From the NCBI GenBank assembly GCA_008017155.1, contig SSGX01000005.1:56619-120618 (forward strand): a stretch of DNA of 64,000 bases, given 5' to 3'. The notes beneath the pieces were generated by a model. That model was not told the origin of the DNA. It made no database searches and saw only the letters and a list, made by a program, of their open reading frames with translations. A program made the translations under genes and the position numbers. This stretch comes from Neisseriales bacterium. Its GTDB lineage: Bacteria > Pseudomonadota > Gammaproteobacteria > Burkholderiales > UBA11063. This document shows positions 5,900-26,889 of the stretch, piece after piece; positions within the stretch are counted from its first letter, which is position 1, and the number at the start of each line of letters is the position of its first letter.

Positions 5900-5947
5900 A
5901 TTTTATGTTAATCCCTTTTTTACTGCAATAGATGATTTTGTCTATTC
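5900..5947 (-). promoter_or_regulatory. Dyad operator plus -10 box, autoregulatory promoter of the LuxR-type regulator
   Basis: On the minus strand the 22-bp dyad (5926-5947) reads GAATAGAC-N6-ATCTATTG, then exactly 20 bp, then TAAAAT (5900-5905). This is the same geometry as the six plus-strand copies, but pointing at the regulator. It implies positive autoregulation. The promoter-proximal half is perfect and the distal half has two changes. Confidence 0.75.
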
Positions 5948-6132
5948 CTGCGTGGTATTATTTATAACAAGTAGAATAAATCTTTATTTGTTAAAAAATA
6001 CTTCAATTTGTTGTAAAAATGTAGTAGCTGTTGCTAAAACTATTTTTTTACGTGTTTTTATAAAGTTATTTTAAGCGTAATTTTTTGTTATCAAATTGAT
6101 TTGTTATTCTAAAATTTAGAAAATTTGTTTGT

Positions 6133-6181
6133 CAATAGATATTTTTATCTATTGATTGCTAATGTGTCTTTTTCATACAAT
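6133..6181 (+). promoter_or_regulatory. Dyad operator plus -10 box upstream of the 6254 gene
   Basis: Perfect CAATAGAT-N6-ATCTATTG at 6133-6154, then 21 bp, then TACAAT at 6176-6181. The start codon is 72 bases further on. The rest of the 5839-6253 gap is AT-rich and I see nothing else in it. Confidence 0.75.
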
Positions 6182-6253
6182 AGCTAGCTAAAGTTACAGC
6201 AAATATGATTTCCTGTAGTTAAAAGCAATAATAAATTTAATAAAGGTATTGAT

Positions 6254-8782
6254 ATGAAAAAACAAAGGTTAAAGCCGATTGTCTATGTTTTGGCCGGAAG
6301 CATACTACTTGCTGCTTGTAACGGCGGTAACTCTACATCTGGAGGTGGTTCGTCAGATTCTTTAAATTCTGCAAAGACGATTGTAAATAATCAAACAAAT
6401 CATGCAGCATTTATTGAAATGGTAAAAAAAGCTCAACAAGGTCCTGCCAATTATGAGGTTGTAAATAAGGATTTTTATACACCTAAACCAGTAGATCTTG
6501 CTTTTGATCCAAAATTAGTCGAAAAATCATTAAAAGTTTCTGACGCAACTAATGCAGCTATAACTGTTATTTCTGGTGCCGTTGGCTTACTTCCTGGTGC
6601 TGGTGCTGTTTTATCAATAGCGATCGCTGCAGGAGCGGGACCACTAATTGATGCCTTAAGTACGCCAGAAGCGCCTGTATATGATCCGAATGGTATTGGT
6701 CAACAGCTTGCAAGATTACAGTATAAAGTTGCGGCACTAGAGCAACAAATGCTTAAAACAAACAACATTTTTTATCAATCCATAAAAGAACAAAGTACTA
6801 ATAGTGTGAATAGTGCACAGCATAAACTATTTACAGCAATGTCTCAAATTTCATTTGCTCCGAATTTAACCTCGTCTGCTAGTAATTGCATGTTAAATAC
6901 TTCGGATCTGGCCTACCACTATTTTGGTTATAGTGGGCTTGGTTTTGATGAATTTGGTACTTCTTGTAATATTGATACAGAACTTGATTTTATGGGGATA
7001 GCTAAAGATTTATCTGCTTATTCTAGTGACTTAAATATCAGTATCTCTGATAGACAATCTTATGCGGATGCAATATCAAATATTAGTGCTTCGAGGGTTG
7101 ATGCGGGATACAATGGTGATTTTTCAAAAGTTGTGCCTATTACAGATGCAAATCAAAGTGCGCTCATTCAAGTGTTAGATGCTATGTTTACTAACCTTAA
7201 AAATTCTGCGCCACAGCAAGGGATTGTTTCTACAAACTATGCTGATACCATAGCTCAGTATAATGCGTCATTGATATATATATTGCAATCAGCTTATAAT
7301 TCACTTCAAGGTGCATATGCAATTGAGCATACCAATAATTACCTGAATTTCCTTGCTGCAGTTAATGCGCTACAAACCAGTTCTAAAGGGAATATTCCAC
7401 AAATCAGTGGTTATGAGGGGCTTCAGGCAGTTAACTTTGAGGTTAAAAAAGTTACTACCCTTGCAGATTTGGAGGCTGACTACGTCAATAAAGAAAATAA
7501 TTTACTGATGTTATACACCGCGCGAACAAATATTCTGATTAATACGGTCTATAAATACACGGTATCGGATAATCCAGTGACTGCGAAGGCGTTACCAGCA
7601 GTACCTACTTCGTACACGCTGGATGGAAAAACTTATAGTTATGAAGTGCCACTACGACCATATTCAGAAATGTACCCGAAACATTATACTACTTCAGACA
7701 TTACTTCTCTTCCAAGTGGTAATTGGAAAGAATCAGGTGCTTTATATACCTTCGGTGGTTATAGTAATTACTATCTTTGCAGTGATGGAACCAAACCTGC
7801 AGATATAAATGATAAAAATTGTAGCCTTTATCCTGAAGCGGAAAGTGGCTTTTATGATGGCGTTAATTTTTCTGTACGGGTTAAAACACCTTCAAGCACA
7901 TCGTTACCTGCGAATTTAAAAAAATCGGCTACGGTTTCTAGTGATTGGTATGTTAGTCAGCTAAATATGCCATTTAAAATTACTGGGTGCGCTAGTGGTA
8001 GTGACATAAACATAAATACTAGTAATGGTTCTTTGTATTGTTCTAAATATCAAGATTGGGAAAGAGTTACCAACGATGTTGCTAAGAAAGTAGATGCAAA
8101 AATACTTAGCCGTCAATCTCTTTATGTTCACCTAAACGGTAACGATAGTTATCCTATCGGTTTTGATATTTTTAATGAGTATGCTTTTATTAATGGTATA
8201 TTTAAAGGATATGTTAATTGGCAGCAATTTATTGTTTCAACAACAGATTTATCTGATGATGTATCTTTTAAAGATAGTTACAGATTTTCTATTAAATCAG
8301 AGAACTCCTTACCTACAGGTCCTACTTATTTAGGGTTGATGTCTGAAGCTTCTAATGGCTTCTCTAATCCATCTATGCTAACCATTCAGCTACATGGAGA
8401 CCTTGTTGGTCAAGGTGGTGGTGCGTACCTCGGAGTTGCTTGTGCTAATCTCGTAGATGAGACAGATAACTTGTCTCGTTATAATAATGGAAAAATGATT
8501 ATGCCTAGCTATTTATCTTGTTACGATCTTGATGCTAAAGGGGTAGATTCTGATTTTGTTAAATTATTTACAGTAAATGTAGATGAAGCAACGAATTCTT
8601 CATCTACTGGCTATTATCCAGTAATGACTGTTTATGATGGTGGAGATACTTTTAAACTTTATAGACTTGAAGTAAAGTATACAAATCAGTATGGTGAAAT
8701 AGGCGCACGTCGGGCACAGTTAATGTATTCCCTTGAATCGTGTGCTAACTATAGTAAATATTGTGCTGCAAATGTAAAGTAA
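6254..8782 (+). CDS. Large lipoprotein with hydrophobic hairpin and coiled coil, possibly pore-forming
   Basis: 842 aa. The N-terminus is a lipoprotein signal ending LLAAC-NGG with Cys22, so it should be anchored in the outer membrane or released from it. Residues ~99-135 form a Gly/Ala/Leu-rich hydrophobic stretch (SGAVGLLPGAGAVLSIAIAA), followed by a predicted coiled coil near 150-185 (ARLQYKVAALEQQ). This arrangement resembles helical pore-forming toxins and the N-terminal region of some insecticidal toxins, but I recognise no family signature. The C-terminal half is Cys-containing and probably beta-rich. The gene follows a dyad promoter, has RBS AAAGG, and is followed by the propeller lipoprotein at 8858. 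Export is well supported; toxin function is speculative. Confidence 0.6.
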   Translation: MKKQRLKPIVYVLAGSILLAACNGGNSTSGGGSSDSLNSAKTIVNNQTNHAAFIEMVKKAQQGPANYEVVNKDFYTPKPVDLAFDPKLVEKSLKVSDATNAAITVISGAVGLLPGAGAVLSIAIAAGAGPLIDALSTPEAPVYDPNGIGQQLARLQYKVAALEQQMLKTNNIFYQSIKEQSTNSVNSAQHKLFTAMSQISFAPNLTSSASNCMLNTSDLAYHYFGYSGLGFDEFGTSCNIDTELDFMGIAKDLSAYSSDLNISISDRQSYADAISNISASRVDAGYNGDFSKVVPITDANQSALIQVLDAMFTNLKNSAPQQGIVSTNYADTIAQYNASLIYILQSAYNSLQGAYAIEHTNNYLNFLAAVNALQTSSKGNIPQISGYEGLQAVNFEVKKVTTLADLEADYVNKENNLLMLYTARTNILINTVYKYTVSDNPVTAKALPAVPTSYTLDGKTYSYEVPLRPYSEMYPKHYTTSDITSLPSGNWKESGALYTFGGYSNYYLCSDGTKPADINDKNCSLYPEAESGFYDGVNFSVRVKTPSSTSLPANLKKSATVSSDWYVSQLNMPFKITGCASGSDININTSNGSLYCSKYQDWERVTNDVAKKVDAKILSRQSLYVHLNGNDSYPIGFDIFNEYAFINGIFKGYVNWQQFIVSTTDLSDDVSFKDSYRFSIKSENSLPTGPTYLGLMSEASNGFSNPSMLTIQLHGDLVGQGGGAYLGVACANLVDETDNLSRYNNGKMIMPSYLSCYDLDAKGVDSDFVKLFTVNVDEATNSSSTGYYPVMTVYDGGDTFKLYRLEVKYTNQYGEIGARRAQLMYSLESCANYSKYCAANVK

Positions 8783-8796
8783 GTAGGAATAACTAA

Positions 8797-8857: not shown

Positions 8858-9973
8858 GTGAATTTTAAAAATTTGGCAATCCGATATGTTTGGATTGCTT
8901 TAATGGGGGTGGCAATTAGTGCATGTAATGGTGGTGGTAGTTCACCGGCGCCAACCCCAACGCCAACCCCAACGCCAACGCCTGGACCAACACCGGCACC
9001 GCCACCAGCATCAGCAAGAGTTCCAAACGGAGCGAGTGTTAATAGTATTGATGTTGATGCAGAGGAGAATGTAATCGCAGGTACTAATGGTGGCTATGTT
9101 TATCTCTCAAGATTGGCTACTGAGTCGTGGCAGTTGATTGATAATGTACCAGTTCCTGATAGTGGTAATATTACTAAAGTATTAATCCAGAGTGATAGGG
9201 ATTTATATGTTTCTACTGCGAATGGAAATGTTTATATGGATGAGTATGCGGTTGAATCATCAACTTGGCAGCTGATTGGCGGAGGAGTTATACCAGACAA
9301 TGTCGGGATTACCTATATCGCTACTACTCCAACAAATGATGTAATAGCTGCAAGTTTTGCACGTAATGTTTATAAATCTGAGTCAGGTAGCGCTGCTTGG
9401 GTGCCTGTAGCTGCAGGTCCGATTCCAGATACTAATGGCACAATCAACACTATGAAAGCTACTCGCTTGGGGAATATCGCCGTAGGGACAAGCAATGGAC
9501 TAGTCTATTTTTCTAGTGGTTATGGAGCATCAGTTTGGACTGCTGCTGCTGGTGGAGCTGCTTTACCGAGTGGAGGAGCATGTCAAGCTATTGAGAACGT
9601 TGGAACTAGAGTATATGCAGGTAGTACCAATGGGCTTATATATTATGTTGATGTAGGTACTACTCCAGTTTTAACTTGGACTCTTGCTGGAAATAATTCA
9701 TTACCCGATCATGGTTTAGTAACAGATCTAACCGAGGATGCAGCAGGAAACTTATATGCATCAACTTCTTATGGTTATACTTACATCTTAGATACCGCTA
9801 CAAATAATTGGCTTCAGATTGGCAATGGTCGTTTACCGATTGATTCTATGCCAAGTAATGCAACTGCAATTGATGCGCGGGGCAGATTGTATGCAGCTAG
9901 TACTGCTGGTTATGTTTTCTATACTTCTTTAAGTGCTGGCGAGAGCTGGGTAGCTGTTGCAGCTGGTAATTAA
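8858..9973 (+). CDS. Seven-repeat beta-propeller-like lipoprotein
   Basis: 371 aa, starting at GTG with GGAG upstream. The lipobox is ISAC-NGGG, followed by a Pro-Thr linker encoded by a hexanucleotide repeat. Then come seven repeats of about 45 residues, each with an N/YG-x-VY-type strand (NGGYVYLS, NGNVYMD, ARNVYKS, NGLVYFS, NGLIYYV, YGYTYIL, AGYVFYT), a W-x-x-(I/V/A)-(G/A) strand and often a PD turn. Seven such repeats suggest a seven-bladed propeller, a scaffold for protein or glycan binding. It is a paralogue of the protein at 22157. It follows the large 6254 gene and probably shares its promoter. Confidence 0.7.
   Translation: MNFKNLAIRYVWIALMGVAISACNGGGSSPAPTPTPTPTPTPGPTPAPPPASARVPNGASVNSIDVDAEENVIAGTNGGYVYLSRLATESWQLIDNVPVPDSGNITKVLIQSDRDLYVSTANGNVYMDEYAVESSTWQLIGGGVIPDNVGITYIATTPTNDVIAASFARNVYKSESGSAAWVPVAAGPIPDTNGTINTMKATRLGNIAVGTSNGLVYFSSGYGASVWTAAAGGAALPSGGACQAIENVGTRVYAGSTNGLIYYVDVGTTPVLTWTLAGNNSLPDHGLVTDLTEDAAGNLYASTSYGYTYILDTATNNWLQIGNGRLPIDSMPSNATAIDARGRLYAASTAGYVFYTSLSAGESWVAVAAGN
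8951..8980 (+). repeat. Hexanucleotide repeat encoding a Pro-Thr linker
   Basis: Five in-frame CCAAC(C/G) units, then degenerate copies to about 9000, encoding PTPTPTPTP. Changes by whole units would keep the frame and alter linker length. It is a local GC-rich patch in AT-rich DNA. Confidence 0.8.
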
Positions 9974-10145: not shown

Positions 10146-10333
10146 AATAATTATTGATGCCACATTTTCAGCATCACAATCAATTGTTTGATGCCCTTGA
10201 ATAATTAACCTGTCATTTTTGTTGTTTAACGCTACATGTATTCTGGGTTTATTATATGTGGTGATCTAAAAATTGATTATTGTTTGCATCTAATATATTG
10301 TTTTGTAATTTTAAATGTATTTTTTTGATTTGT

Positions 10334-10381
10334 CAATAGATGTTTTTATCTATTGTGAGAATTGTAGTTAATTGTTAATAT
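10334..10381 (+). promoter_or_regulatory. Dyad operator plus -10 box upstream of the 10511 gene
   Basis: Perfect CAATAGAT-N6-ATCTATTG at 10334-10355, then exactly 20 bp, then TAATAT at 10376-10381. The leader to the start codon is about 120 bases. Confidence 0.75.
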
Positions 10382-10510: not shown

Positions 10511-12109
10511 ATGATGAGAAAGAGAAAAGTAATATTATCTTGCATATTGCTTAGCATTTTAGCTAGTGGAGCATTTGCAGCTGTTGAAAGCAAGAAAAAT
10601 AGCTTAAAGTCTGCTGTCAGTGATACTTGGGCGGTGATTGGCGCTCCAACCTTACAAGCTACAGAAATGCCTACTAGTACACTTAGCTGTATTAATGCCT
10701 CTGCAGAAAGAGTTAATATTGGTGGTTCTCCACGTTTTAGTATGAATTTTGATACTGCTGCTTCAAGCGAAGATATTTCCCGTACCTTTAATATTGGTGC
10801 TGGTGGATCAGGAGCAATTCCTGGCGTACTTGTCGGTGCTAATGCTTCATTTGCTTCGAAAATAAAAAATAATGACTATACTTATAACCTTACTTATTTA
10901 TCTACCAGTTCAGTAGCCAAGGCAGAATTTATACCTAGCTATGGCAATAGCAATTTAAGTGCAGATGGGCTAAGTGTATTGGCTTCTGGAAAGGATGCAT
11001 TTTTTCAGACTTGTGGTGATTCTTTTGTCAGTAGTATGGATGCTGGGGCTCTCCTAGCTGTTAATGTGGCAATCAAATTCAAAAGTAAGCAGGATATGCT
11101 GTCTTTTATGGAAAGTGCTTCTTTAACTCTTAACGCTGAAAGTGCAGCTAATGTAAGTTTGAATAACTTAATTGATTATACCGAAAGTCATTTGGCTACG
11201 AATGCAATGATTTCTATTTCAGCACTTCAGAATGGTGGAACCCCAGAGAAGCTTGCTGAAGTTCTTACCGGTAGCGGAGTTACTACTTGTACCTCTGGCG
11301 ATTCAAAAAGTTGTGCGACCTTAATTTCAAATATCGTAGATTACGCTAACGGTCTTGGTGCACAAATTAGAGATAAAGATAACAATCTTATTACCAAAAA
11401 TTTATACTATTATAATCCAGTATTATCTTCATATGCATCACTTGGTATTGATGTTCCCAAGCCAAGTTTACTTTCATCGGCAGCGGTAAATGCACAGCTT
11501 AAAGTGGCTGATGAGTTAAATGATTTGCAAGCAAAAATTGATTTTCTAAATAATTACAATACGAGTACCTTGCAGACACAAACCCTTTCGGATGTTAAAT
11601 CTTATGTTGCAGCTCAGACACTAGTATTGAATAATAGGGTAAACTTTATTAAGTCAAAGGTTGTTGATTGTTTTAATGCTCAGGCTGAAACATGTCCTGC
11701 TATAGTTGAACAAATAGAAAATACGTTTAAGAATAGCACTTCAGCATATAACTTTGACGAAAGTAAATATAAGAAATTAAAAAATAATTCCTGGTCATAT
11801 GTGCTAAATGGTGATTTGACTTATCTTATCCCAGTTTCTTTTGCCAATACCTTTGTAACTGAAACAAGCAATAGTAAAACAAATAACAAGGTTGTACAAG
11901 GATATACTTCTGAAGAGAATGGTGTTTCCTATATTAGTGAATTTGATATTCCTTATAAAACTACTCTAGGTGGTGAAGGAACATATAAGTGTTTACCAGC
12001 GACTGGAGATAGCAAATTTGCTAATGCACGTAGATTCACATGTAGTAGTAAGAAATTATTCTCTAAAAAAATTGATCTACAATTTACTAAATCTGAAGAT
12101 CTACTTTAA
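10511..12109 (+). CDS. Exported protein, paralogue of the 20214 lipoprotein, faintly MACPF-like
   Basis: 532 aa with a cleavable signal peptide (ILLSILASGAFA) and no lipobox, unlike its paralogue at 20214. The two align over most of their length: FFQTCGDSFVSSMDAGALL (about residue 163) matches FYKSCGDGYVNSEDYTAG, and the central ISALQNGG / DYANGLGAQIRD segment matches VALSQLGG / TYAGSFADQIKDP. The Cys-Gly-Asp-x-aromatic-Val block followed by long strands recalls the Y-G-T-H-Y signature of MACPF/CDC pore formers, but the match is loose and I offer it only as a hypothesis. RBS AAAGGA. The 12164 propeller-like lipoprotein follows 54 bases later. Confidence 0.55.
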   Translation: MMRKRKVILSCILLSILASGAFAAVESKKNSLKSAVSDTWAVIGAPTLQATEMPTSTLSCINASAERVNIGGSPRFSMNFDTAASSEDISRTFNIGAGGSGAIPGVLVGANASFASKIKNNDYTYNLTYLSTSSVAKAEFIPSYGNSNLSADGLSVLASGKDAFFQTCGDSFVSSMDAGALLAVNVAIKFKSKQDMLSFMESASLTLNAESAANVSLNNLIDYTESHLATNAMISISALQNGGTPEKLAEVLTGSGVTTCTSGDSKSCATLISNIVDYANGLGAQIRDKDNNLITKNLYYYNPVLSSYASLGIDVPKPSLLSSAAVNAQLKVADELNDLQAKIDFLNNYNTSTLQTQTLSDVKSYVAAQTLVLNNRVNFIKSKVVDCFNAQAETCPAIVEQIENTFKNSTSAYNFDESKYKKLKNNSWSYVLNGDLTYLIPVSFANTFVTETSNSKTNNKVVQGYTSEENGVSYISEFDIPYKTTLGGEGTYKCLPATGDSKFANARRFTCSSKKLFSKKIDLQFTKSEDLL

Positions 12110-12163: not shown

Positions 12164-13117
12164 ATGAAAAATAAATTAAAAGTAAATTTAATCGCTGGAA
12201 TAGTTATTGTGAGCACGCTTCTTACCGCGTGTAATGGGGGTAATAACTCTTCCTCTAACGGTAATAGTGTAAATTCTGCTGATAGTGATACTCTGTATGG
12301 GTTAAGTTATGATCCAGTTACTAGTAGTGTCTTCAGTACTAATGAGAATGGGGTGCTATGTAGAATTTCAGCAAAAAATATTCCTGATAATATGGTGTGT
12401 AATTTGGTAGCTCCTAATAATATTCATCTAGCAAGTCAGCTTAAAGATGACAATAAAGGAACTATTTATGCATTGGGTGTGCAGGCTAAGACAGGGGATA
12501 ATTTCTTATTAAAATATCATACAGAGAAAAATACATGGAATACTGTCGCAATTGATCTACCATTTAGTCTTTCGTTTAATAAATTAGAGTTATATAGTGG
12601 AAATCTTTATCTTACAGATAAGAATGACTCTGCTCTATACACAATTAATCTTGTTACTAATAAAGTTGAATCTGTACCTGATTTTGTTGTTCCAGGTAAT
12701 GGTGAATTAATGGCAATTAATAATAGTACAGGAGCGGTTCTCTATACAGTTCAAGAAGCTGTGGAATCAAATTTTCAAACTACTATTCTTTCACAAACTT
12801 ATTCCAAACTTCTTAGTAGTACTGCATCTACACAATGGTCAAAATATGGACCAGGGGATAGAAACATTAATGATTCAAATTATGTAAATGACACTATTTA
12901 CGCTTGTGCTGAATCTGATTTTGTTTATGATTATCATCCTACCGGATCAACTGATAATTTTAGTTGGAAAATACTTAAAAATGGATCTCAACCAGGATAC
13001 TTCTCATGTGACTATTTAGCTTCTAATGGAAATGATTTGCTATATTATGTGGAAGGAAAATGGACAAGTAACGAGAAGTTTAATAATAAATATGTTAGCT
13101 CAGTAAAAATAAAATAA
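12164..13117 (+). CDS. Lipoprotein, probable beta-propeller-like repeats
   Basis: 317 aa with lipobox LLTAC-NGGN. After a Ser/Asn linker the sequence alternates strands of the kind DTLYGLSYDP, GTIYALGV, NLYLTDK, AVLYTVQE, DTIYACAES and DLLYYVEG, spaced 35-50 residues. This resembles propeller blades but is more divergent than the 8858 and 22157 proteins. The IPDN turn also occurs in those two. It follows the 10511 gene and probably shares its promoter. A strong hairpin follows the stop. Role unknown; surface binding is an inference. Confidence 0.55.
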   Translation: MKNKLKVNLIAGIVIVSTLLTACNGGNNSSSNGNSVNSADSDTLYGLSYDPVTSSVFSTNENGVLCRISAKNIPDNMVCNLVAPNNIHLASQLKDDNKGTIYALGVQAKTGDNFLLKYHTEKNTWNTVAIDLPFSLSFNKLELYSGNLYLTDKNDSALYTINLVTNKVESVPDFVVPGNGELMAINNSTGAVLYTVQEAVESNFQTTILSQTYSKLLSSTASTQWSKYGPGDRNINDSNYVNDTIYACAESDFVYDYHPTGSTDNFSWKILKNGSQPGYFSCDYLASNGNDLLYYVEGKWTSNEKFNNKYVSSVKIK

Positions 13118-13512: not shown

Positions 13513-14436
13513 GTGAAACAAATTATATTTTTCCTGATATCTGGATGTTGGTTGAACTTTGCGATTAGTAATGTATTTGCAGATGATGTACATTTAAGTG
13601 CACAAATTTGTAATAAGACTCTAAGTCAAAAAGTCTTTCACTTTAGAGAAATAGAGCATGGCTACGCAAGCGTAGATGGTAAAGTGGGTAAGTTATTCTA
13701 TTTACAGCCTAATAAGTGTAATGTAATTAATTATTCAATGAAATTTAGCGGTAACGATAATGATGGTAGTCGCTATCTAATGTTTATTGATAGTCTTACA
13801 AAAGGTACTTTTAAGATTCACGGAGAACACGTTAGTAGTCAAGCCATTGCTTCTTATGTTAGTGATTTTGACATACCGGGATATGTGTATATTGAGAATA
13901 ATAAAGGTATATTTAATGTGGGTCGAAATACGAGTGACTCTAGATTAAATGTTGACATAATTAATCAGCCAAAATCAATATTTACTAACTTTGGTAATGG
14001 CTGTATTAAGGATATATCTACTGGCCTAGTTTGGGTAGCTAGTCCTAGTTTGCTTGGTTATGGCAGTTGGGATCTACTATATAGAAAAGTCATCCAGATG
14101 AATACGTTGCCTACCGCTATTGATTATCATTTATGTGGTTATAGTGATTGGCGAATGCCTACGAAGTATGAATTAAATATTCTTGCTCAACATGCAAAAT
14201 TATCAGGTGCAGATACGCCATATGCAGAATGGTTTAATAAAAATGGCTTTCATGATATTCGATACGATTACGGCTATTGGTCGATGTCTGCAAACCACAC
14301 ATACCTTGGTAATCTGGAGTGGAGTGTTAATATGTTTGATGGCGATGTTAGTATTCAAAATTTGGATTTGTACCATTACGTTTGGCCAGTGCGAGGTGGA
14401 CATTATCCTGTAAAAGATAAATTGATTATTAAGTAG
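13513..14436 (+). CDS. Exported DUF1566 (Lcl C-terminal) domain protein
   Basis: 307 aa, starting at GTG with AAGAG upstream. The signal peptide ends SNVFA-DD. Residues ~35-150 form an unknown N-terminal domain beginning HLSAQICNKTLSQKVFHF. The C-terminal ~140 residues are a DUF1566 domain: IKDISTGLVWVAS, LCGYSDWRMPTKYELNIL, DYGYWSMSA and VWPVRGG. The same two-domain layout occurs at 16077 (AQICN/AHICN, LCGYNDWRVPT, YVWPVRGG), so they are paralogues. DUF1566 domains resemble formylglycine-enzyme/C-type-lectin-like folds on secreted proteins. It has no dyad promoter immediately upstream. Confidence 0.75.
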   Translation: MKQIIFFLISGCWLNFAISNVFADDVHLSAQICNKTLSQKVFHFREIEHGYASVDGKVGKLFYLQPNKCNVINYSMKFSGNDNDGSRYLMFIDSLTKGTFKIHGEHVSSQAIASYVSDFDIPGYVYIENNKGIFNVGRNTSDSRLNVDIINQPKSIFTNFGNGCIKDISTGLVWVASPSLLGYGSWDLLYRKVIQMNTLPTAIDYHLCGYSDWRMPTKYELNILAQHAKLSGADTPYAEWFNKNGFHDIRYDYGYWSMSANHTYLGNLEWSVNMFDGDVSIQNLDLYHYVWPVRGGHYPVKDKLIIK

Positions 14437-14595
14437 TGCATTATTTACAGTAAACAAAGAAAAGCATAAAAACAATATTTATTATCTCATACTATTTTGT
14501 ATTTAATTTGATATTTTTAAATACTAGTTCTGTGAATATGAGTAATTGTAATTTTTATCTTCAATAAAAGCTTTAACATATTTTTATTAATTTGT

Positions 14596-14643
14596 CAATA
14601 GATAAGATCATCTATTGTGAAATATTTTGGTGAAAGTTACAAT
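14596..14643 (+). promoter_or_regulatory. Dyad operator plus -10 box upstream of the 14740/14936 unit
   Basis: Perfect CAATAGAT-N6-ATCTATTG at 14596-14617, exactly 20 bp, then TACAAT at 14638-14643. The spacer bases (AAGATC) differ from the other sites, so the arms rather than the centre are conserved. The 14437-14595 stretch before it is AT-rich with nothing recognised. Confidence 0.75.
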
Positions 14644-19109: not shown

Positions 19110-19232
19110 TGTTGTTAATTGTAACATTGATATTTTTGGTGATGCTATTTTTCACTTTTATGCTTATTGCCGGAATTTTTTTTCTGTGATAATGCTTTAT
19201 CTAGTATTGTTTATATCAATTTATATGTTTGT

Positions 19233-19280
19233 CAATAGATGTTTTTATCTATTGTGCTTATTTAAATTATTAGATAGAAT
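19233..19280 (+). promoter_or_regulatory. Dyad operator plus -10 box upstream of the 19395 gene
   Basis: Perfect CAATAGAT-N6-ATCTATTG at 19233-19254, identical to the 10334 site even in its centre, then exactly 20 bp, then TAGAAT at 19275-19280. Confidence 0.75.
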
Positions 19281-19394: not shown

Positions 19395-20165
19395 ATGAGA
19401 AACTTAGCGAAGATTAGGTTGGCAGCTTTATTTGCCATTTTATCTGTGAGTCATGTGTATGCCTTAGATGGATCAACGTGGAAGGTTATGATCGTGAAAA
19501 ATGATCTGAATCATTCCGTTAAATTAAATACTTTTTTGGTTTTACGCGGTACTTTTATTCTTGCTAAGCTTGATAATGGTGTGGTGGTGAATAATAACTG
19601 GAATTTTGTAGAACTAAATCCTCAATCAGAGATCATAATTCCAGCTAATTCGTCAATAGACAGTAAGACTCCGGGTAATCAGTTGAATTTTACTTTAAAC
19701 AGCATGACTAATGAGGACTTGCGAAATAGAGGTTATAATACTCTGGTATTTGTAACGCAAAATTATAATGAGTGGATGACAGATCGTTATGCTAATCTGA
19801 TCATTAATGCAGGTTTGGGTATACCAGAGGTTCGTTATGGTTATACAGGATACTTTGATAGTGCTGCATCAGGGAAAGCAAATGATAAGGGTGAAGAAGT
19901 TGATAGCCTTAGTAATGAGTTAATTAATTATAGCTACTTTCTTGGCTATACCCGTGTTTCAAATGTCGAGGTAGTACCTAGGGCTTCTGGGCGAGCTATA
20001 AAAGGCATGGCTGGGGTATTCAGTAGAGTGCCAGAGATCCTTTATGATTCTTCTAGTAATAACCATTTAGATGTACCCGCATATAATGAAATTTCAATTG
20101 CAAAAGATGTTTGTGCTAACCAAGCCACAATTGATGCTTATTTAGATTGCTTTAAAGATCAATAA
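19395..20165 (+). CDS. Hypothetical exported protein
   Basis: 256 aa with a signal peptide (LAALFAILSVSHVYA-LDG) and strong RBS AAGGAGA. The mature part looks beta-rich (WKVMIVKNDLNHSVKLNTFL). I recognise no family. It is the first gene after a dyad promoter, 48 bases upstream of the 20214 lipoprotein, and so is probably part of a three-gene unit 19395-23548. Confidence 0.6.
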   Translation: MRNLAKIRLAALFAILSVSHVYALDGSTWKVMIVKNDLNHSVKLNTFLVLRGTFILAKLDNGVVVNNNWNFVELNPQSEIIIPANSSIDSKTPGNQLNFTLNSMTNEDLRNRGYNTLVFVTQNYNEWMTDRYANLIINAGLGIPEVRYGYTGYFDSAASGKANDKGEEVDSLSNELINYSYFLGYTRVSNVEVVPRASGRAIKGMAGVFSRVPEILYDSSSNNHLDVPAYNEISIAKDVCANQATIDAYLDCFKDQ

Positions 20166-20213
20166 ATTAATATATCAATGACTGCATATAATATTTTTAA
20201 CAGGATTCATAAA

Positions 20214-22043
20214 ATGAAACTATCAGCCAAAGCTACAATATCTACTCTAATGCTAGTCTCCTTGTGTGCTTGTAATGGTGGTGAAAATTCATCATCTAGA
20301 TCAGCTCAAAGTGAAACGGAAAAACTATTTAAGCAACGTAATGCAATAATTTTAGATGCAATTAAAAATGGACAACAGGTTGTTCTTCCTTCTTCTTTAA
20401 AAACTTTTCGCGAATTGCGCGTTGCTAGCGTGGGTGCATATGGTTCAAATCTTGGTATGCCAGGCTATAACAAAATGAATGCTATGCTTTCTCACGATTC
20501 ATGCATCATCACAAATGGTGATTTGTTCAGTGACTCTAATTATGCCAAAGGTAAAAAGAGTGATAAATATGAGTATACAATGGATAGTTCTAGTAAATCA
20601 TCAGAGCAGTCTCAGGCAATTTCAGCATCACTCTCAGGAGGAACTTCCTTGATTCAGGTTAGTGGTTCAGCAGCTGTTGAGAATAGTTCAACTTTTAATG
20701 ATTCTGAGATTGGGTTTAACCTTTTGGCAACGGTTAATGGAACACATCTGTTAAATGATAGTAATACTAGTAATAGTGGTGTTCTTAAAGACTTTTTTAA
20801 ACCAATATACTTGACTTCTGGCAGTCTTAATTCGAGTTTTTATAAATCATGTGGTGATGGTTATGTTAATTCAGAAGATTATACCGCAGGAGTTAAAGCG
20901 CATATATCAATCAAACTACAAAATCAGGAAGAAGCATCAAGTTTTAGAGCTGAGTTAAGTGCTTCCTACGGTAGCTTTGCGGAACTTTCTGCCTCAATTC
21001 AAGCAGCAGAGAAAAAAACTAGTCAAAAAGCACAAATTATTGTAGCCCTTTCTCAATTAGGTGGTGATTCCGGAGGACTATTAAAAGTAATTGATAGCGA
21101 TGTGCTAGATTGCGGGGTGAATAATTTTCAGAGTTGTAATGCTGTGATGAATAAAATACTAACCTATGCTGGCAGTTTTGCTGATCAGATAAAAGATCCC
21201 ACTACTGGAAATATAAAGCCAGATAAAGTAGCATATCTAATTCCTTCTTTTACTAAATATGAAAATAAAGTAAAATTAACTGGAACTGATATTACGCCTG
21301 AGGCCTCAGCTGCTATTTCTCGCCTTAATAAAATTTATTTAGATAATCTAAAACTTTATTATGGGTTTCAAGATATTGTTGCGACGTTAGATAGCTCAGC
21401 GCAGAATAGTCTCAAAAATGAGGTGCTAAATAAGCTTAGAGATCGCGAAGTGTATATATCTAGTCAGGCACCACTATGCTACAATGATCCCTCAACCTGT
21501 GCAACAGTTACATTACCTAATATTGTTAAACAAATAAATGCATCTTATCCAATTGATCCAAATGTACTAGACTTTTATGCTAAGAGCTATACTGCTAGGA
21601 ACTTCTTGAATCTAAATACAAAATTTGGTTCTAGTGATAATTCTAAAGCTATTAAGGTTAAGCTCCTTCCTATGTCTATATATACAGGCTCAGATGGCTC
21701 AGTTAAATATAACTATAAGGCAACTGATCTTGGTGATTGTAGTACTAATACATGTAAAGATTTACAAGTTAAGGTTCAATTACTGGGGGTCGATAGCAAA
21801 GATAAACTTATGCGTTATAAAATTACTTTTAACAATATTAAATCACTATCTTATCAATGTGGCGATAATCGCTCTAATGGGTCTGTAGATTGTCATGGAT
21901 ATTATGGCATGAGAGCTGAGAGTCTACCTACATATAATCATAACGATACAGCTAGCTTTGATTGGTTTGACTCATTACATTATACCTATGTTGGTGGTTT
22001 TACTGATGAGGAATTAAAACAGATTGCTATTTTATCAGTGTGA
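20214..22043 (+). CDS. Lipoprotein paralogous to the 10511 protein, faintly MACPF-like
   Basis: 609 aa from the ATG at 20214, which has AGGA eight bases upstream; an ATG 36 bases earlier would mask the signal. The lipobox is SLCAC-NGGE. Residues ~90-170 are Ser-rich and repetitive (SSSKSSEQSQAISASLSGG). FYKSCGDGYVNSEDYTAG near residue 208 aligns with the 10511 protein, as does the Cys-bearing CGVNNFQSCNAVMNKI region. The C-terminal ~150 residues have several cysteines. A membrane-inserting or binding role is a hypothesis from the weak MACPF-like block. It is followed by a hairpin and the propeller lipoprotein at 22157. Confidence 0.55.
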   Translation: MKLSAKATISTLMLVSLCACNGGENSSSRSAQSETEKLFKQRNAIILDAIKNGQQVVLPSSLKTFRELRVASVGAYGSNLGMPGYNKMNAMLSHDSCIITNGDLFSDSNYAKGKKSDKYEYTMDSSSKSSEQSQAISASLSGGTSLIQVSGSAAVENSSTFNDSEIGFNLLATVNGTHLLNDSNTSNSGVLKDFFKPIYLTSGSLNSSFYKSCGDGYVNSEDYTAGVKAHISIKLQNQEEASSFRAELSASYGSFAELSASIQAAEKKTSQKAQIIVALSQLGGDSGGLLKVIDSDVLDCGVNNFQSCNAVMNKILTYAGSFADQIKDPTTGNIKPDKVAYLIPSFTKYENKVKLTGTDITPEASAAISRLNKIYLDNLKLYYGFQDIVATLDSSAQNSLKNEVLNKLRDREVYISSQAPLCYNDPSTCATVTLPNIVKQINASYPIDPNVLDFYAKSYTARNFLNLNTKFGSSDNSKAIKVKLLPMSIYTGSDGSVKYNYKATDLGDCSTNTCKDLQVKVQLLGVDSKDKLMRYKITFNNIKSLSYQCGDNRSNGSVDCHGYYGMRAESLPTYNHNDTASFDWFDSLHYTYVGGFTDEELKQIAILSV

Positions 22044-22156: not shown

Positions 22157-23548
22157 ATGTTAAAAAGACTAGTTAAATTTAATTTGGCTTCGCTTTGTCT
22201 TTTTCCTGTATTTTTGTCTGCATGTAATGGTGGGAGTAGTTCAGCTAACTCCAATAATTTACTAATTTCTCAAAGTATTCCAAACTTATATTTAGATCAA
22301 AACTGGGAAGTACGAGTGAGTAGCTCTGGCAGAGTTACAGAATCAATTGAAGTTACACTACAAAGTCCTTATGGAATATTAACTTCTCCATCAACTGTAG
22401 TATTAACACCAGAAAGTCCTATAGCATCATTCAGTATTAGCGGAAATGTGGTTTGTGTGGCATGTAAAATTTCTGCAAGTTCAAATAACTACGGTACTGC
22501 GTATTCAAACAATTTTGATGTCAAGTCTGGACAGCTTCCTGATTATGGTGGGCTTGCAGACTTAGAGGTTGCAACAGGTTCACATAAAATTTTTGCTGCC
22601 TCAACTAATGGTCATGTCTATCGTGCACAGATTGAGAGTTCTTCAGGTACATCAGGTCCGTGGATTCAGATGTCTACAGAAATCCCTGATTCAAGTTCTA
22701 TTTTGGATATGGATTATGATCGATTAACTCAAAACTTGTATGCAATAACAGCCAATGGAAATGCGTATCTTTCAATTTTAGGGGTAGGTAGCTGGAAGCA
22801 ATTAGGCGGTGGAAGTTTACCCGATAATTCAATTTCATTTGGTTCACAAATTGATACAGCAGGTAACTTATTTGTAGCTGCTAATAATGGAAATATCTAT
22901 GCAACTAGCCTAAATGGCGGAAATTGGCAGATAGTAGGTAATGCCAAATTACCAGATGGAGGTGTTGTAACTACCGAATATGGTATTTATATTGTTCCTA
23001 TTAATAATAATGCGGAGAGCATATTTGTTGGTTCTTCACTAGGTAATGTATATGTAAGCAATATTAATCCTGCTAGTTTAGTTTCCGGTTCATGGGTTCA
23101 TATTGCTAATTCTTCAATACCAGACGAAATTACATCCATTAGTGTTGATTCAAGTACTAATCCCGAGTCTGGTAGCATTTATGCAGGAACTAATCGGGGA
23201 TTAATTTATTATTCATCAGGAATAAATGGAGCATGGAAGCAATTAGGAGCTGCTCTAGGTGGAAGTATAGATTTTATTGTCATTGATTCATCTACAAGCG
23301 ATATTTACGCATTAACACAGTATGGCGCTGCAACTTTTTCAGCATACTATTCTTTAGCGTCAGGATTTACAAGTTGGACTAATTTTGGAAATATTCTTCC
23401 GGAGTCAATGTCTGATGGCTGCACAGTAAGCGATGTAGTTACTTCTTTTCCGGGTACAAATCTTCAGTTTGCTGGCACTAATTGTGGGAATGTTTATTTC
23501 TCAACTTATGGGTTTACTGATTGGAAAGCAGTTGGGCTTTCTTTATGA
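22157..23548 (+). CDS. Seven-repeat beta-propeller-like lipoprotein with N-terminal Ig-like domain
   Basis: 463 aa, RBS AGGGG, lipobox LSAC-NGGS. Residues ~35-125 form an Ig-like domain (SIEVTLQSPYGILTSPSTVV). Seven repeats follow with strands NGHVYRA, NGNAYLS, NGNIYAT, LGNVYVS, RGLIYYS, YGAATFS and CGNVYFS, separated by W-x-Q-(L/I/M) strands and IPD/LPD turns. The repeat spacing and number match the 8858 protein, its paralogue, which lacks the Ig-like domain. It is a predicted outer-membrane-anchored binding protein; the ligand is unknown. It closes the 19395-23548 unit. Confidence 0.7.
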   Translation: MLKRLVKFNLASLCLFPVFLSACNGGSSSANSNNLLISQSIPNLYLDQNWEVRVSSSGRVTESIEVTLQSPYGILTSPSTVVLTPESPIASFSISGNVVCVACKISASSNNYGTAYSNNFDVKSGQLPDYGGLADLEVATGSHKIFAASTNGHVYRAQIESSSGTSGPWIQMSTEIPDSSSILDMDYDRLTQNLYAITANGNAYLSILGVGSWKQLGGGSLPDNSISFGSQIDTAGNLFVAANNGNIYATSLNGGNWQIVGNAKLPDGGVVTTEYGIYIVPINNNAESIFVGSSLGNVYVSNINPASLVSGSWVHIANSSIPDEITSISVDSSTNPESGSIYAGTNRGLIYYSSGINGAWKQLGAALGGSIDFIVIDSSTSDIYALTQYGAATFSAYYSLASGFTSWTNFGNILPESMSDGCTVSDVVTSFPGTNLQFAGTNCGNVYFSTYGFTDWKAVGLSL

Positions 23549-23634: not shown

Positions 23635-23669
23635 AGCACTAGTCAACTTGTTTGGCTGGTGCTTTTTTT
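23635..23669 (+). terminator. Terminator after the 22157 gene
   Basis: AGCACTAGTC (23635-23644) pairs with GGCTGGTGCT (23654-23663) through two G-T pairs, followed by TTTTTTA. The next dyad operator starts about 30 bases later. Confidence 0.75.
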
Positions 23670-23697
23670 ATCTTTACCATGAAATCTATGGTTTTGT

Positions 23698-23745
23698 CAA
23701 TAGATAAAATCATCCATTGAGAATTTTCTTGATGATCAATATAAT
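23698..23745 (+). promoter_or_regulatory. Dyad operator plus -10 box upstream of the 23817 gene
   Basis: CAATAGAT-N6-ATCCATTG at 23698-23719 (one change in the proximal arm), exactly 20 bp, then a consensus TATAAT at 23740-23745. Confidence 0.75.
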
Positions 23746-23816: not shown

Positions 23817-26405
23817 ATGAAGATAAAATTTATAAAGCGGATGAGTTATAGTATCTTGACTATCGCTATACTTTCTGCATGTGGTAATAGCGGTTCTGGT
23901 TCTAATGGTAGTAATAATAATCCGCAGCCAATTGTTGATACTGTTGAAAAAGTAGTTATTGGTCAGATTTCTAAGATGCCTGTTATAGCTGGAAGTGCTA
24001 GTTCATATGAAGTTGTGATCAAAAATAATTCAAAAGAAGCAGTTAAACTAAGCTCAGTTTCTTTGCCTTCTCATACTTATAAAATGGAAAAGAATATTAG
24101 TGGTTTAAAGACTGATTTATATGATTTCTCCGCATGTTCTAATACCCTTCTTGCAAATCAAACTTGTGTTGCTAAAATAACTCCTGCAGATCAAGCTGGT
24201 GGTTTTGCGCTTAAGGCGATATTTAATGGGACATCAACTGGTAAGAGTTATACTGCAAATCAGGTCTTCAACTATGGGGAAATTACTGAACAAAGTGGTT
24301 TTAGTCTTGATAACTCAACGATTACTGTTGAAGAGAAAAATAACCGCTCTTACTATTTATCAATCCCTTTTGTATTAGATGGTAATTATTCAGATGTCAA
24401 AGTAAAAAGTTCTATTATTCCTGCTGAAACACCAGTTATCTCATGTTCTGGAAAAGGTTTTGCTAAAGGAAGTAGCTGTACGGCACATTTACTGTTTAAT
24501 GGTGGTAAATATAGTAATAAAATTATCTTGACTGGAGTATATGGAGATACAACAGTGCGAATGGCTAATTTAAGTTCGTCTAAACATAGCCTGAAGGCAG
24601 ATGGAAATAGTACTGATTCATCCCCAGTTTTTGTGAACGTTGATAATAATACAGTTGGTAATCTTGTACATAATGGATCTAATGCAATCCTTAGCTATGG
24701 TGTCAATTATCCTGTTACGATTATAAATAATGGACTAGCTGATGTAAATATAACTAGTATTACGTCTAATGAAAGTAGTATTGCGGTGGTAGATAGCACT
24801 TGTGGTAGTACCTTAGTTGCTGGTGGTACTTGTACCTTTAATGCTAATTCTTCATCTAAAACAAACAAGACTGGTCAAATTACTATTAACAGTAGTGGCT
24901 TAGGTAGTTCTGTCTTTAATGTTATTGCAATGGGTAGCTCAAATGCTCCTGGATTAACCTTAACTAATAATGGTAATTTCACTTATACTGTTGCTGGTGA
25001 ATCGAGAGATGTTGTTATTAATGTAAAAAATAGTAGTACAACTGACACTAAATTAACTAACTTAGCCTTTACTACATTGTCTGCACCGTTTTCTATTTTG
25101 CCTTATACCGGACAGGGTAATAACTCTTGTGATGTAAGCGGAGGTACTACCGAATTATCACAAGGTGAAAGTTGTAATCTCGTAATAAAATATAGTCCAA
25201 CTGGAGTTACTTCACAAAATGCATTGGATTTTGCAGTACGAGGAAATTATTTTGAATCTGATGGTGTAACGAATCATACTTTGAGTTCGAAAGTTAGCGT
25301 GAATTATTCAGCAATTGCTAGTTATGCTCATGTAAGCTTTAGCCCAAATCCACTTACAATGACTTCAATTCGTGCAGACGGTAATAAATCTACTGAAAGT
25401 ACGATAACCTTGACTAATGATGGTGGTACTGCTGCTACGAATTTTTCTATTGATACTAGTGCATTAGCTGCCAATCATTTGACAGTCATGGCGAATGATT
25501 GCCCAACTAATGGTAATACTTTAAATACAGGTGCTCAATGTACTTTGCGGGTTAAATTTGGTCCAGTTAATACCGATGTTGATAATACTACAGATATTAG
25601 CGCAAATTATAATCTATCTCCAAATGATGGCACTACTTCATCACGAGGGGAGATTAAAACATTTGCTAGAAAAGCAGCCTTAATTCAAGTAAGTGCACCT
25701 GAAGTAACAGCAGACAATGTTGGATATACCCAAACTGGTAACACATATCAATTTTATCCAACACCTAATCAGTATTTGAGATTTAAATTTACCTACACGA
25801 ATATTGGTACAGAGTCAGCAAATTCATTTAACGTAACCCTAGGCGATTCTATCCCTGCTTTTGCAGAATTGGATCCGTCATCAACTTGTAAGACTGATGG
25901 TACTGCTAGTACTCTAGCTGCTAGCGAAAGTTGCACCCTAACCTTACGTTTTATGAATAATCAATATTTGCAGGTTTTTGGAGCAGATCAAACTGCAGAT
26001 TTAACTATACCAGGTTACTCATATAAAGATTCAAATACAGGTGTAAATACATTTGCTTTTAGTACACCTAAATATAATATTCAGGCTAAGCCTTGGGCTA
26101 CTGTTTCTGGAAGTGCTTTAGTTAGTGGTGTTACTGCAACTGTAAGTCTGGGTTATGCAAATCTTGCTCCTATTGCTGGTAACTATATTAGTTTTAGCCT
26201 AACTGATTATGAACAGGCTGGTTTTATCTCTAATGGCAGCTCTTCATGTACTGCTACTGGGGTGCCAACTAACTGTTCTATTCAACTAACAGTTCCAAGC
26301 TACCTGCCTAAAGGTGATTATTACTTAAAATATTCAGCTACTAATAGCACTCCACCAGCAAGTAATCTTCCATTAACTGGAGTAGTTAAGGTAACCGTAA
26401 ATTGA
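23817..26405 (+). CDS. Large lipoprotein with repeated Ig-like (choice-of-anchor/SPD-2-Hydin-type) domains
   Basis: 862 aa, lipobox LSAC-GNSG. Several ~100-120-residue Ig-like repeats each carry a V-x-N-N/D-G/S strand and a C-x(8-15)-G/Q-x-x-C pair: SACSNTLLANQTCVAKI, STCGSTLVAGGTCTFNA, CDVSGGTTELSQGESCNLV, CPTNGNTLNTGAQCTLRVKF, STCKTDGTASTLAASESCTL. This is typical of choice-of-anchor D-like or ASPM/SPD-2/Hydin-like surface repeats, probably a stalk or adhesin-like rod. It is single-gene on its promoter, ending at a strong terminator at 26433. It is related to the 26941 and 40748 proteins. Confidence 0.7.
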   Translation: MKIKFIKRMSYSILTIAILSACGNSGSGSNGSNNNPQPIVDTVEKVVIGQISKMPVIAGSASSYEVVIKNNSKEAVKLSSVSLPSHTYKMEKNISGLKTDLYDFSACSNTLLANQTCVAKITPADQAGGFALKAIFNGTSTGKSYTANQVFNYGEITEQSGFSLDNSTITVEEKNNRSYYLSIPFVLDGNYSDVKVKSSIIPAETPVISCSGKGFAKGSSCTAHLLFNGGKYSNKIILTGVYGDTTVRMANLSSSKHSLKADGNSTDSSPVFVNVDNNTVGNLVHNGSNAILSYGVNYPVTIINNGLADVNITSITSNESSIAVVDSTCGSTLVAGGTCTFNANSSSKTNKTGQITINSSGLGSSVFNVIAMGSSNAPGLTLTNNGNFTYTVAGESRDVVINVKNSSTTDTKLTNLAFTTLSAPFSILPYTGQGNNSCDVSGGTTELSQGESCNLVIKYSPTGVTSQNALDFAVRGNYFESDGVTNHTLSSKVSVNYSAIASYAHVSFSPNPLTMTSIRADGNKSTESTITLTNDGGTAATNFSIDTSALAANHLTVMANDCPTNGNTLNTGAQCTLRVKFGPVNTDVDNTTDISANYNLSPNDGTTSSRGEIKTFARKAALIQVSAPEVTADNVGYTQTGNTYQFYPTPNQYLRFKFTYTNIGTESANSFNVTLGDSIPAFAELDPSSTCKTDGTASTLAASESCTLTLRFMNNQYLQVFGADQTADLTIPGYSYKDSNTGVNTFAFSTPKYNIQAKPWATVSGSALVSGVTATVSLGYANLAPIAGNYISFSLTDYEQAGFISNGSSSCTATGVPTNCSIQLTVPSYLPKGDYYLKYSATNSTPPASNLPLTGVVKVTVN

Positions 26406-26432
26406 TCTTTGTTCAAATGTATTAATGTATCT

Positions 26433-26460
26433 GGTAGCTATCTTTGATAGCTACCTTTTT
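26433..26460 (+). terminator. Strong rho-independent terminator
   Basis: GGTAGCTATC (26433-26442) pairs perfectly with GATAGCTACC (26446-26455) around TTT, followed by TTTTT. It closes the 23817 unit. Confidence 0.85.
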
Positions 26461-26514
26461 AGCTGCTAATTGATAATCAATTAGTCTATTTATGAATTTA
26501 TATTTGGGTGAAAT

Positions 26515-26847
26515 ATGGATAAAACTGATCTTATCGATAAAGTTCTGAAGAATAAAGTTAGAGAAACCAGAAAAACTATCTTAAAAGATGATGATGTTTA
26601 TTCGGGGCGGGTATTTTTGGAATTATCTGACGATATATTAACGATAACTGACAGTAAGCAACTTATGTTAGTTAGATATTATTGTCCGGATTATGATGCC
26701 TTTGAGTTGGTTGTTTTACTAAATGATATTTGTGGTACATTATTAAAAGTTCGGAGTGCATGGGAGTATTTATCAGCGACAGATAATGAGCTTCAGTACA
26801 TGATAAAACAACCAAATATGTATTACCATGATAGCCTATCCCAATAG
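26515..26847 (+). CDS. Small hypothetical cytoplasmic protein
   Basis: 110 aa beginning MDKTDLIDKVLKNKVRETRK, with no signal peptide, unlike its neighbours. RBS GGGTGA. The middle (VFLELSDDILTITDSKQLML, then VRYYCPDYDAFELVV) looks like a compact alpha/beta fold; I do not recognise it. It lies between a strong terminator and the next dyad. Its last two codons, CAA TAG, are the first six bases of that operator, so the stop codon and operator overlap exactly. Confidence 0.5.
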   Translation: MDKTDLIDKVLKNKVRETRKTILKDDDVYSGRVFLELSDDILTITDSKQLMLVRYYCPDYDAFELVVLLNDICGTLLKVRSAWEYLSATDNELQYMIKQPNMYYHDSLSQ

Positions 26848-26889
26848 ACAAAATCATCTATTGTGGAAAATATAATGATTCAATATAAT
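26842..26889 (+). promoter_or_regulatory. Dyad operator plus -10 box upstream of the 26941 gene
   Basis: CAATAGAC-N6-ATCTATTG at 26842-26863 (one change in the distal arm), exactly 20 bp, then consensus TATAAT at 26884-26889. It overlaps the end of the preceding gene. Confidence 0.75.

Follow-up and report, generated by a model that had tools for sequence, protein, structure and literature searches.

Organization of the locus

The window analyzed here, a stretch of 64,000 nucleotides from what is likely an Aquella species (Aquella being a tap-water genus), contains a minus-strand gene for a putative regulator (the 5074 gene), seven 22-bp dyads, and a series of plus-strand genes (Table 1). All seven dyads were recovered where the original prediction had placed them, with the arm changes listed in Table 1. 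About twenty exported-protein genes had also been predicted, a number that proved too high: the open reading frames (ORFs) of at least 100 aa from 6254 to 31215 number 16, of which nine encode a lipobox and five more an apparent Sec signal, three of these five being called solely by a looser rule. The predicted fold of the 10511 product (mean pLDDT, 62.9) gave no match at E ≤ 0.001, with MACPF/CDC entries recurring at E values of 0.04 to 0.4. A protein with blastp similarity to the 23817 product is encoded behind a related operator in another genome (G004). Terminator-like hairpins between positions 5000 and 24999 number 12, against 9.7 expected from shuffles. The regulator gene has a possible alternative start, TTG at 5898, but this codon is located 5' of the predicted transcription start.

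Table 1. Genes and sequence features of the regulator gene and the units next to it
Feature	Coordinates	Strand	Remarks
Putative regulator gene, PAS + LuxR-type HTH, VqmA-like	5074..5838	-	254 aa; ATG at 5838
-10-like TAAAAT, regulator gene	5900..5905	-	20 bp from 5926 dyad
Candidate operator dyad	5926..5947	-	2 arm changes; faces regulator gene
Candidate operator dyad	6133..6154	+	perfect arms
-10-like TACAAT	6176-6181	+	21 bp from 6133 dyad
Predicted lipoprotein	6254..8782	+	first gene of 6133 unit; related to gene behind G005 site L052:13352
Predicted lipoprotein	8858..9973	+	beta-propeller matches
Candidate operator dyad	10334..10355	+	perfect arms
-10-like TAATAT	10376-10381	+	10334 dyad
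Predicted secreted protein, 530-aa family	10511..12109	+	family behind same operator in G005 (twice) and G007
Predicted lipoprotein	12164..13117	+	
Predicted secreted protein	13513..14436	+	Lcl_C domain
Candidate operator dyad	14596..14617	+	perfect arms
-10-like TACAAT	14638-14643	+	14596 dyad
Predicted secreted protein	14936..16084	+	first long ORF of 14596 unit
Predicted secreted protein	16077..16931	+	Lcl_C domain
Predicted lipoprotein	17014..17760	+	
Acyltransferase	17932..19074	+	Acyl_transf_3
Candidate operator dyad	19233..19254	+	perfect arms
-10-like TAGAAT	19275-19280	+	19233 dyad
Predicted secreted protein	19395..20165	+	relative behind same operator in G005
Predicted lipoprotein	20178..22043	+	
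Predicted lipoprotein	22157..23548	+	weak beta-propeller match
Terminator-like hairpin + T-run	23635..23663	+	just 5' of 23698 promoter
Candidate operator dyad	23698..23719	+	1 arm change
-10-like TATAAT	23740-23745	+	23698 dyad
Predicted lipoprotein	23817..26405	+	HYDIN-type Ig domain
110-aa ORF	26515..26847	+	no Pfam match or signal sequence; 3' end overlaps 26842 dyad
Candidate operator dyad	26842..26863	+	1 arm change
-10-like TATAAT	26884-26889	+	26842 dyad
Predicted lipoprotein	26941..29727	+	
Predicted lipoprotein	29995..31215	+	possibly last gene of 26842 unit

The 5074 protein belongs to a VqmA-like family

The description of the 5074 protein as LuxR-type holds at the family level: the GerE domain (PF00196) was matched by 19 of 22 family members at E ≤ 0.01, with a best value of 4e-10, although the window protein taken by itself did not reach the cut-off (E = 0.041). 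The closest solved relative is VqmA, and the fold match to it covers the PAS and LuxR-type domains over the whole length. Sequence similarity to VqmA extends through the C-terminal extension. The second-best full-length-type fold match was EL222 (E = 3e-7), weaker than the match to VqmA; EL222 is a flavin-binding, light-driven protein that differs from the family in joining a LOV domain to its LuxR-type HTH.

VqmA of Vibrio cholerae and phage VP882 is a quorum-sensing receptor with a PAS and a LuxR-type domain and the ligand DPO. Which DNA it reads is determined by residues of the HTH and of the stretch immediately following it (PMC8284805). Like VqmA, the 5074 protein is predicted to be a single-protein sensor-activator, whose PAS domain would sense a small ligand. 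The predicted ligand pocket differs from that of VqmA: the DPO-binding residues F67, F99, and K101 (PMC10426928) align with I/V, V, and Y/C in the family, as judged by eye from a profile alignment. Also unlike VqmA, the family reaches 23 members per Aquella genome, and its apparent targets are clusters of exported-protein genes. With the window protein as the sole query, named genomes yielded no relatives, and the viral contigs scanned gave 45 pattern matches, none of them relatives.

The dyads share a fixed spacing to predicted promoter boxes

The dyads of this class, referred to as alpha, have the consensus [CG]AATAGA[CT]-AAAATC-ATCTATTG. Allowing up to three mismatches, the window holds 7 matches, against a mean of 1.12 and a maximum of 4 in 100 shuffles. 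A search of the whole genome for the dyad returned six sites at up to one mismatch, all in the cluster (2.47 Mb searched, 81% complete). Of the 35 sites that the same genome has at up to three mismatches, 28 lie outside the cluster; the backward control pattern gave 30, so that the looser matches are background, and dyads with two or three mismatches outside the cluster were rejected as regulon members. In the three closest of these (L104, L105, and L106), the best box at 20 to 21 bp is not -10-like; L105 has TAAGAT at 19 bp.

Offsets of 0 to 59 from each dyad were scanned for a -10-like hexamer, defined by A at position 2, T at position 6, and at least four of six matches. Such a hexamer starts exactly 20 bp past the dyad in six of the seven window sites and 21 bp past it in the seventh (6133), whereas any other offset has one in two sites at most. 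The predicted distances thus stood, with the amendment that the box of the 5926 dyad sits on the minus strand. We rejected 5926 as a plus-strand promoter: its best plus-strand hexamer at 18 to 22 bp has three of six matches, against TAAAAT at 20 bp on the minus strand. Because this site reads with a box on the minus strand only, it is likely the promoter of the regulator gene itself, which would then be autoregulated. The 6133 dyad has a second -10-like box, this one on the minus strand.

The dyad centre falls 31 bp before the -10 box, or at about -43 from the predicted start, in line with the class II position originally assigned, in which a dyad centred near -42 covers the -35 region at a fixed distance from the -10. 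The accompanying claim that no -35 box is needed requires rewording. Rather than simply absent, this element is overlapped by the operator, whose final TTG forms the first half of a -35 hexamer set 17 bp from the -10. It is degenerate: in 30 hand-chosen alpha sites, most of them located by a pattern or model that included the -10, bases 4 to 6 are mostly not ACA (commonest, T 19, G 15, and A 11 of 30). Given these bases, transcription would depend on help to RNA polymerase from the bound regulator, as in class II activation. An operator overlying the -35 suits repression as well, with the protein blocking RNA polymerase until a ligand frees it, and the promoter of the 23698 unit is near consensus unaided (TTGAGA-N17-TATAAT, 11 of 12 matches). 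However, most of the promoters seem weak on their own, and VqmA is an activator (PMC8284805). The spacing, moreover, varies by no more than one base pair, which is what contact with polymerase requires, whereas repressors tolerate shifts. We consider repression unlikely.

Dyad and spacing recur across the genus

Beyond this genome, the dyad and its spacing recur in six more from the genus. A genus-wide search with the dyad alone yielded 11 further dyads, all 11 with a -10-like box on one strand or the other, at 20 bp in 8 and at 21 bp in 3. These dyads, found without the -10, provide an independent check on the spacing; the 20-bp distance in 19 of 23 alpha sites does not, because most of those were found using the -10. 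Several of the 11 adjoin relatives of the 5074 protein and precede related exported-protein genes. When the pattern was relaxed to half-sites with one mismatch allowed, it was no commoner across the genus than its backward control, with 47 rows versus 52, divided into 38 versus 12 in the seven dyad-bearing genomes and 9 versus 40 in the rest. In a direct scan, the excess at 20 bp consisted mostly of alpha sites; at a score of 16, 9 of 27 matches were of other classes, with 2 to 9 at displaced spacings.

Repeats of this kind might also stem from a promoter segment that was duplicated or is mobile and has no dedicated regulator. The 10334 and 19233 dyads are identical, and TTTGT precedes five of the seven window dyads. 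Outside the dyad, the spacing, and the -10, though, most sites are dissimilar; dyad and spacing, by contrast, are kept in seven genomes. Other dyad classes retain symmetry and spacing while their letters change, which copying does not explain, and we regard this origin as very improbable.

Another regulator, for instance a paralogue encoded elsewhere, could read the dyads, with the 5074 gene merely one more target. The family has 14 members in this genome (E ≤ 1e-5), and two others (C39:33446 and C46:19997) share its x-N-A recognition helix and could bind the same window sites. Against this, the nearest relatives of the 5074 protein adjoin alpha sites in G005 (C28 and C1) and G001, and the closest, at 61% identity, has four sites within 10 kb; we rate this alternative slightly below repression. 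From the sequence evidence, it is instead probable that the seven dyads are operators of the adjacent VqmA-like regulator, which would bind them in dimeric form, with the centre near -43, and thereby switch on its own gene together with six transcription units whose products are mostly predicted to be exported.

Paralogues and other operator classes

At E ≤ 0.05, a covariance model of the sites matched 56 times, with training sites accounting for 22 of the matches; a reversed decoy matched twice. The matches include dyads with other inner bases in an unchanged layout, several of which adjoin other paralogues. The training set was drawn partly from regulator neighbourhoods, so the nearness of those sites to regulators is biased; among the 34 non-training matches, 6 have a family gene no more than 1 kb away, counting genes in the fetched loci. 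A readable non-regulator gene accompanies 15 of the 34, and 8 of the 15 look exported (P = 0.07), which indicates that some weak matches are chance. L188, L195, and L199 are among the chance-looking matches. Two of the scans scored, in each genome, the top 150 candidates from a first look, the matches read were those with E up to 0.25 except one in G017, and match number correlated with genome size (0.58).

Recognition helices were read from 58 family genes in the fetched loci, fragments and remote relatives included, and from 17 entries in small loci that are partly the same genes; the family search gave 90 matches in total. Most of the 58 genes have no recognisable dyad nearby, and palindromes in the 500 bases 5' of each paralogue are mostly unrelated. 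Of the three CGTC/GGCG sites in G005, two score equally and are situated close to contig ends, and they may represent a single repeat present in two copies.

Comparison with other genomes gives good support to the originally proposed LuxR-type regulon of class II geometry: the dyad, its 20- to 21-bp spacing, and related targets recur, and relatives of the 5074 protein adjoin several of the sites. The 5074 protein may not be the sole binder, and the operator is one of several related ones in the genus. Our best reading of the sequences is that paralogous VqmA-like activators would act at diverged operators in the class II position. Several paralogues may read dyads with other inner bases in a common layout: an outer CAAT in most, then four variable bases, an AT-rich 6-bp middle, the mirror image, 20 bp, and TATAAT. 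With diverged dyads in one layout, the genus probably holds several parallel exported-protein circuits.

More tentatively, and with somewhat less than even confidence, Aquella may contain mutually insulated VqmA-like regulator-operator pairs in which the inner operator bases and recognition-helix residues 202, 203, and 206 co-vary, each with its own non-DPO ligand and its own block of surface proteins. The pairs would be x-N-A with ATCT, S-S-T with GCTC/GCTT, A-S-S with GACG, A-K-V with GACG/GACT, A-K-N with CGCT, and A-T-R with GGTG. It is similarly tentative that all share the 20-bp spacing and an outer CAAT/ATTG that also supplies the -35 TTG.

Discussion

Neither this operator nor a VqmA-like family in Aquella is reported among the literature matches listed, in keeping with the earlier statement that no described regulon is known to have this operator. 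VqmA operators read GG-N6-CC or GG-N9-CC (PMC8284805), and the alpha operator has neither form. In length and position it resembles the lux box, an inverted repeat of about 20 bp centred at -42.5 (PMC3376562). LuxR shares the GerE-type HTH, but the N-terminal domain of the 5074 family is PAS-type and the dyad is different. Canonical AHL quorum sensing was not supported: the AHL synthase domain PF00765 exceeded the cut-off in 0 of 23 genomes, with one sub-cut-off match in G016. The 14 control genomes likewise gave 0, which limits what this absence can show. The Streptomyces PAS-LuxR regulators PimM, PteF, and their relatives likewise combine a PAS domain and a LuxR-type HTH with a palindromic operator at -35, the 16-bp CTVGGGAWWTCCCBAG (PMC9774167). 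The alpha consensus does not match this sequence, and the Streptomyces proteins serve antibiotic clusters, whereas here a 22-bp AT-rich operator precedes exported-protein clusters.

If the regulon proposed here is correct, VqmA-type sensing, which in the literature consulted comes from vibrios and one phage, would gain a large branch of its own in Aquella (Neisseriaceae). The operator of this branch can be read from sequence, and its regulon would consist of exported proteins whose functions are for the most part unknown. Many orphan lipoproteins would fall into co-regulated sets. Since the geometry is constant among the paralogues and the letters of the operator change, Aquella would offer a ready-made system for studying how regulator and operator change together after duplication, and its paralogues may be a source of parallel regulator-promoter pairs.

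Putative operator dyads and predicted promoter layout in the window

A pattern search of the window recovered all seven 22-bp putative operator dyads of the original prediction, whose reading of them as a LuxR-type regulon looks right in outline but needed correction on three points. Within the genome carrying the window (2.47 Mb, 81% complete; contig of 120 kb), no sites other than the six best dyads have one arm change or fewer. The fixed spacing also held, with a -10-like hexamer exactly 20 bp past the dyad end at six of the seven sites and 21 bp past it at the seventh. The dyad at 5926 does have its 20-bp box, but on the minus strand only, placing the predicted transcription start near 5893 on that strand. 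Because of this predicted start, the ATG at 5838, with AGG five bases before it, is likely the start codon of the regulator, a VqmA-like PAS and LuxR-type protein. The other six dyads point right, each followed by a long ORF. Where about twenty exported-protein genes had been expected, we counted 16 ORFs of at least 100 aa from 6254 to 31215, mostly of predicted exported type: nine carry a lipobox and another five a predicted Sec-type signal (called by differing rules), the remaining two being an acyltransferase and a 110-aa ORF. Two Lcl_C-domain proteins within the regulon are perhaps paralogous.

The geometry agrees with the proposed class II position: with its centre 31 bp ahead of the -10 box, the dyad would sit near -43, like the lux box of LuxR, reported as centred at -42.5 (PMC3376562). 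The original prediction needed no -35 box. The final TTG of the dyad forms the first half of one, at 17-bp spacing to the -10 box; bases 4 to 6 are mostly non-ACA, commonly T, G, and A. This arrangement would account both for no -35 having been seen and for the fact that operator classes mostly share the outer CAAT/ATTG but differ in the inner four bases. Dyad position and degenerate -35 favour a model in which the regulator would activate activator-dependent class II promoters, including that of its own gene, over the main rival, repression by the same regulator.

TTTGT directly abuts five of the seven window dyads on the 5' side, and likewise three of the four sites in a G005 cluster (L052). 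Read on the minus strand, it supplies TTGACA; at three sites (6135, 10336, and 19235) a -10-like box accompanies it. This element may represent divergent promoters or an operator extension.

Alpha-class sites within the genus

Sites of the window class (alpha) were sought in 23 genomes, the window's own and 22 others of its genus, likely Aquella; A. oligotrophica P08T is described as a tap-water isolate (PMC6612550). Dyads with at most one mismatch numbered 17 in six genomes, versus one for a backward control. Eleven lay outside the window's genome and were found regardless of any -10 box, yet all 11 have a -10-like hexamer, eight at 20 bp and three at 21 bp (either strand); other offsets from 0 to 59 gave one in at most four of the 11. 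The combined dyad and -10 pattern gave 27 match rows in five genomes, some counting one dyad on both strands, and none for the backward control. A shorter pattern with one mismatch showed no enrichment when all 23 genomes were taken together, with 47 rows versus 52 backward; split, it gave 38 versus 12 in the seven alpha-site genomes and 9 versus 40 elsewhere.

Among 30 aligned alpha sites, the promoter-proximal half ATCTATTG was nearly invariant (every base in 29 or 30), the distal half read [CG]AATAGA[CT] with variants, and the middle was AAAATC-like; A2 and T6 of the -10 box were kept in all 30. Grouping the genes behind these sites by blastp gave the families in the table and left seven genes ungrouped. 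Five sites had no called gene within 420 bases, three of them at stretch ends. In the 519- to 537-aa family, the G001 member has a Pfam match to GDA1/CD39 nucleoside phosphatases (E 1e-22). The secreted 530-aa family has at most a weak MACPF/CDC-fold likeness (Foldseek E 0.04 to 0.4, low-confidence model).

Features of the window, of fetched loci (L) and of genomes of the genus (G)
Feature	Location	Strand	Remarks
Alpha dyads	window 5926, 6133, 10334, 14596, 19233, 23698, 26842		
-10-like box TAAAAT	window 5900-5905	-	20 bp from 5926 dyad
TTTGT	window 6128-6132, 10329-10333, 14591-14595, 19228-19232, 23693-23697		
Lcl_C-domain proteins	window 13513-14436, 16077-16931		
795-822 aa family	G001, G005, G007		5 alpha sites; one gene cut by stretch end
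530-aa family	G000 (window 10511-12109), G005, G007		4 alpha sites
519-537 aa lipoprotein family	G001, G002, G008		3 alpha sites
Loci of the 519-537 aa lipoprotein family	L066:14954-16516, L097:3546-5105, L187 downstream of 7977		
6254, 19395, 23817 families			2 alpha sites each
Non-alpha dyad CAATAGTC/GACGATTG	L108		within 1 kb of paralogue
Non-alpha dyad CTATCACC/GGTGATAG	L058		within 1 kb of paralogue
Non-alpha dyad CAATAAGC/GCTCATTG	L080		within 1 kb of paralogue
Non-alpha dyad CAATAGCC/GACGATTG	L064		within 1 kb of paralogue
Non-alpha dyad CAATCATC/GACTATTG	L061		within 1 kb of paralogue
Dyad CTAAACTTggtgatAAGTTTAG	L047:9363-9384 (G000), L070:9689-9710 (G001)		no 20-bp -10 geometry
~455-aa family subgroup	L065:331-1701, L059:8688-10082, L084:4810-6174, L110:2385-3749		extra N-terminal part

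Other operator classes and the regulator family

In the fetched loci, a direct search for 8-N6-8 dyads of any sequence paired with a -10 box at 20 ± 1 bp returned 27 at score 16 (2 to 9 at nine displaced control spacings) and 17 at score 18 (0 to 3). Since alpha sites predominate (18 of the 27, 13 of the 17), this search alone supports other classes weakly; several non-alpha sites lie close to other paralogues. Searched against the 23 genomes, a covariance model built from 22 sites returned 94 matches at E ≤ 1, of which 56 reached E ≤ 0.05; a decoy made by reversing the training sites returned 14 and 2. The 56 were the training sites, 15 further alpha rows, and 19 other-class rows, two of the 15 and two of the 19 being the opposite strand of a known site. 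Outside the genus, 58 genomes from the same order were searched with stricter filters and gave none at E ≤ 0.05 and three at E ≤ 1. GAGC/GCTT-type sites occur at four places in G007. G005 has three CGTC/GGCG sites, of which the two near contig ends are perhaps one repeat, and G017 has four of GTG/CAC type, one of them directed into a family gene 57 bp away. Exported-looking genes stand behind 27 of 36 readable matches among the 56 (p 2e-7 relative to a background of 309 in 972), but behind only 8 of 15 for non-training matches alone (p 0.07).

Matches to the regulator family, 90 in all, are spread over 14 of the 23 genomes (14 in the window's genome, 23 in G001) and include an ~455-aa subgroup. 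Paralogue number per genome correlates with operator match number (rho 0.72, p 9e-5, 23 genomes; decoy -0.14), as does genome size (0.58). An identical dyad lies ~130 to 150 bp upstream of family genes from G000 and G001 that are close relatives of each other.

In the window protein, residues 202, 203, and 206 align with base-contact positions of NarL-type HTH domains and are likely the base readers. Position 206 aligns with VqmA A192, reported to affect promoter choice (PMC8284805). Family genes beside alpha sites carry x-N-A at these residues (SNA, SNA, SNA, GNA/ANA, ANA), and those beside other classes ASS, SST, AKV, AKV, AKN, and ATR, with GNR in one distant relative. At E ≤ 0.05, the seven genomes that yielded an x-N-A helix all contain alpha matches, and the remaining sixteen contain none. 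Because the fetched neighbourhoods of several x-N-A genes (L046, L047, L055, L062, L070, and L081) contain no alpha site, this helix-operator link is a correlation among related proteins and no proven code. In the family tree, alpha-adjacent genes are scattered in one clade of 35 (support 0.94), which also holds other-class genes. Judged from sequence, the single regulon would widen into a genus-wide family of regulator-operator pairs.
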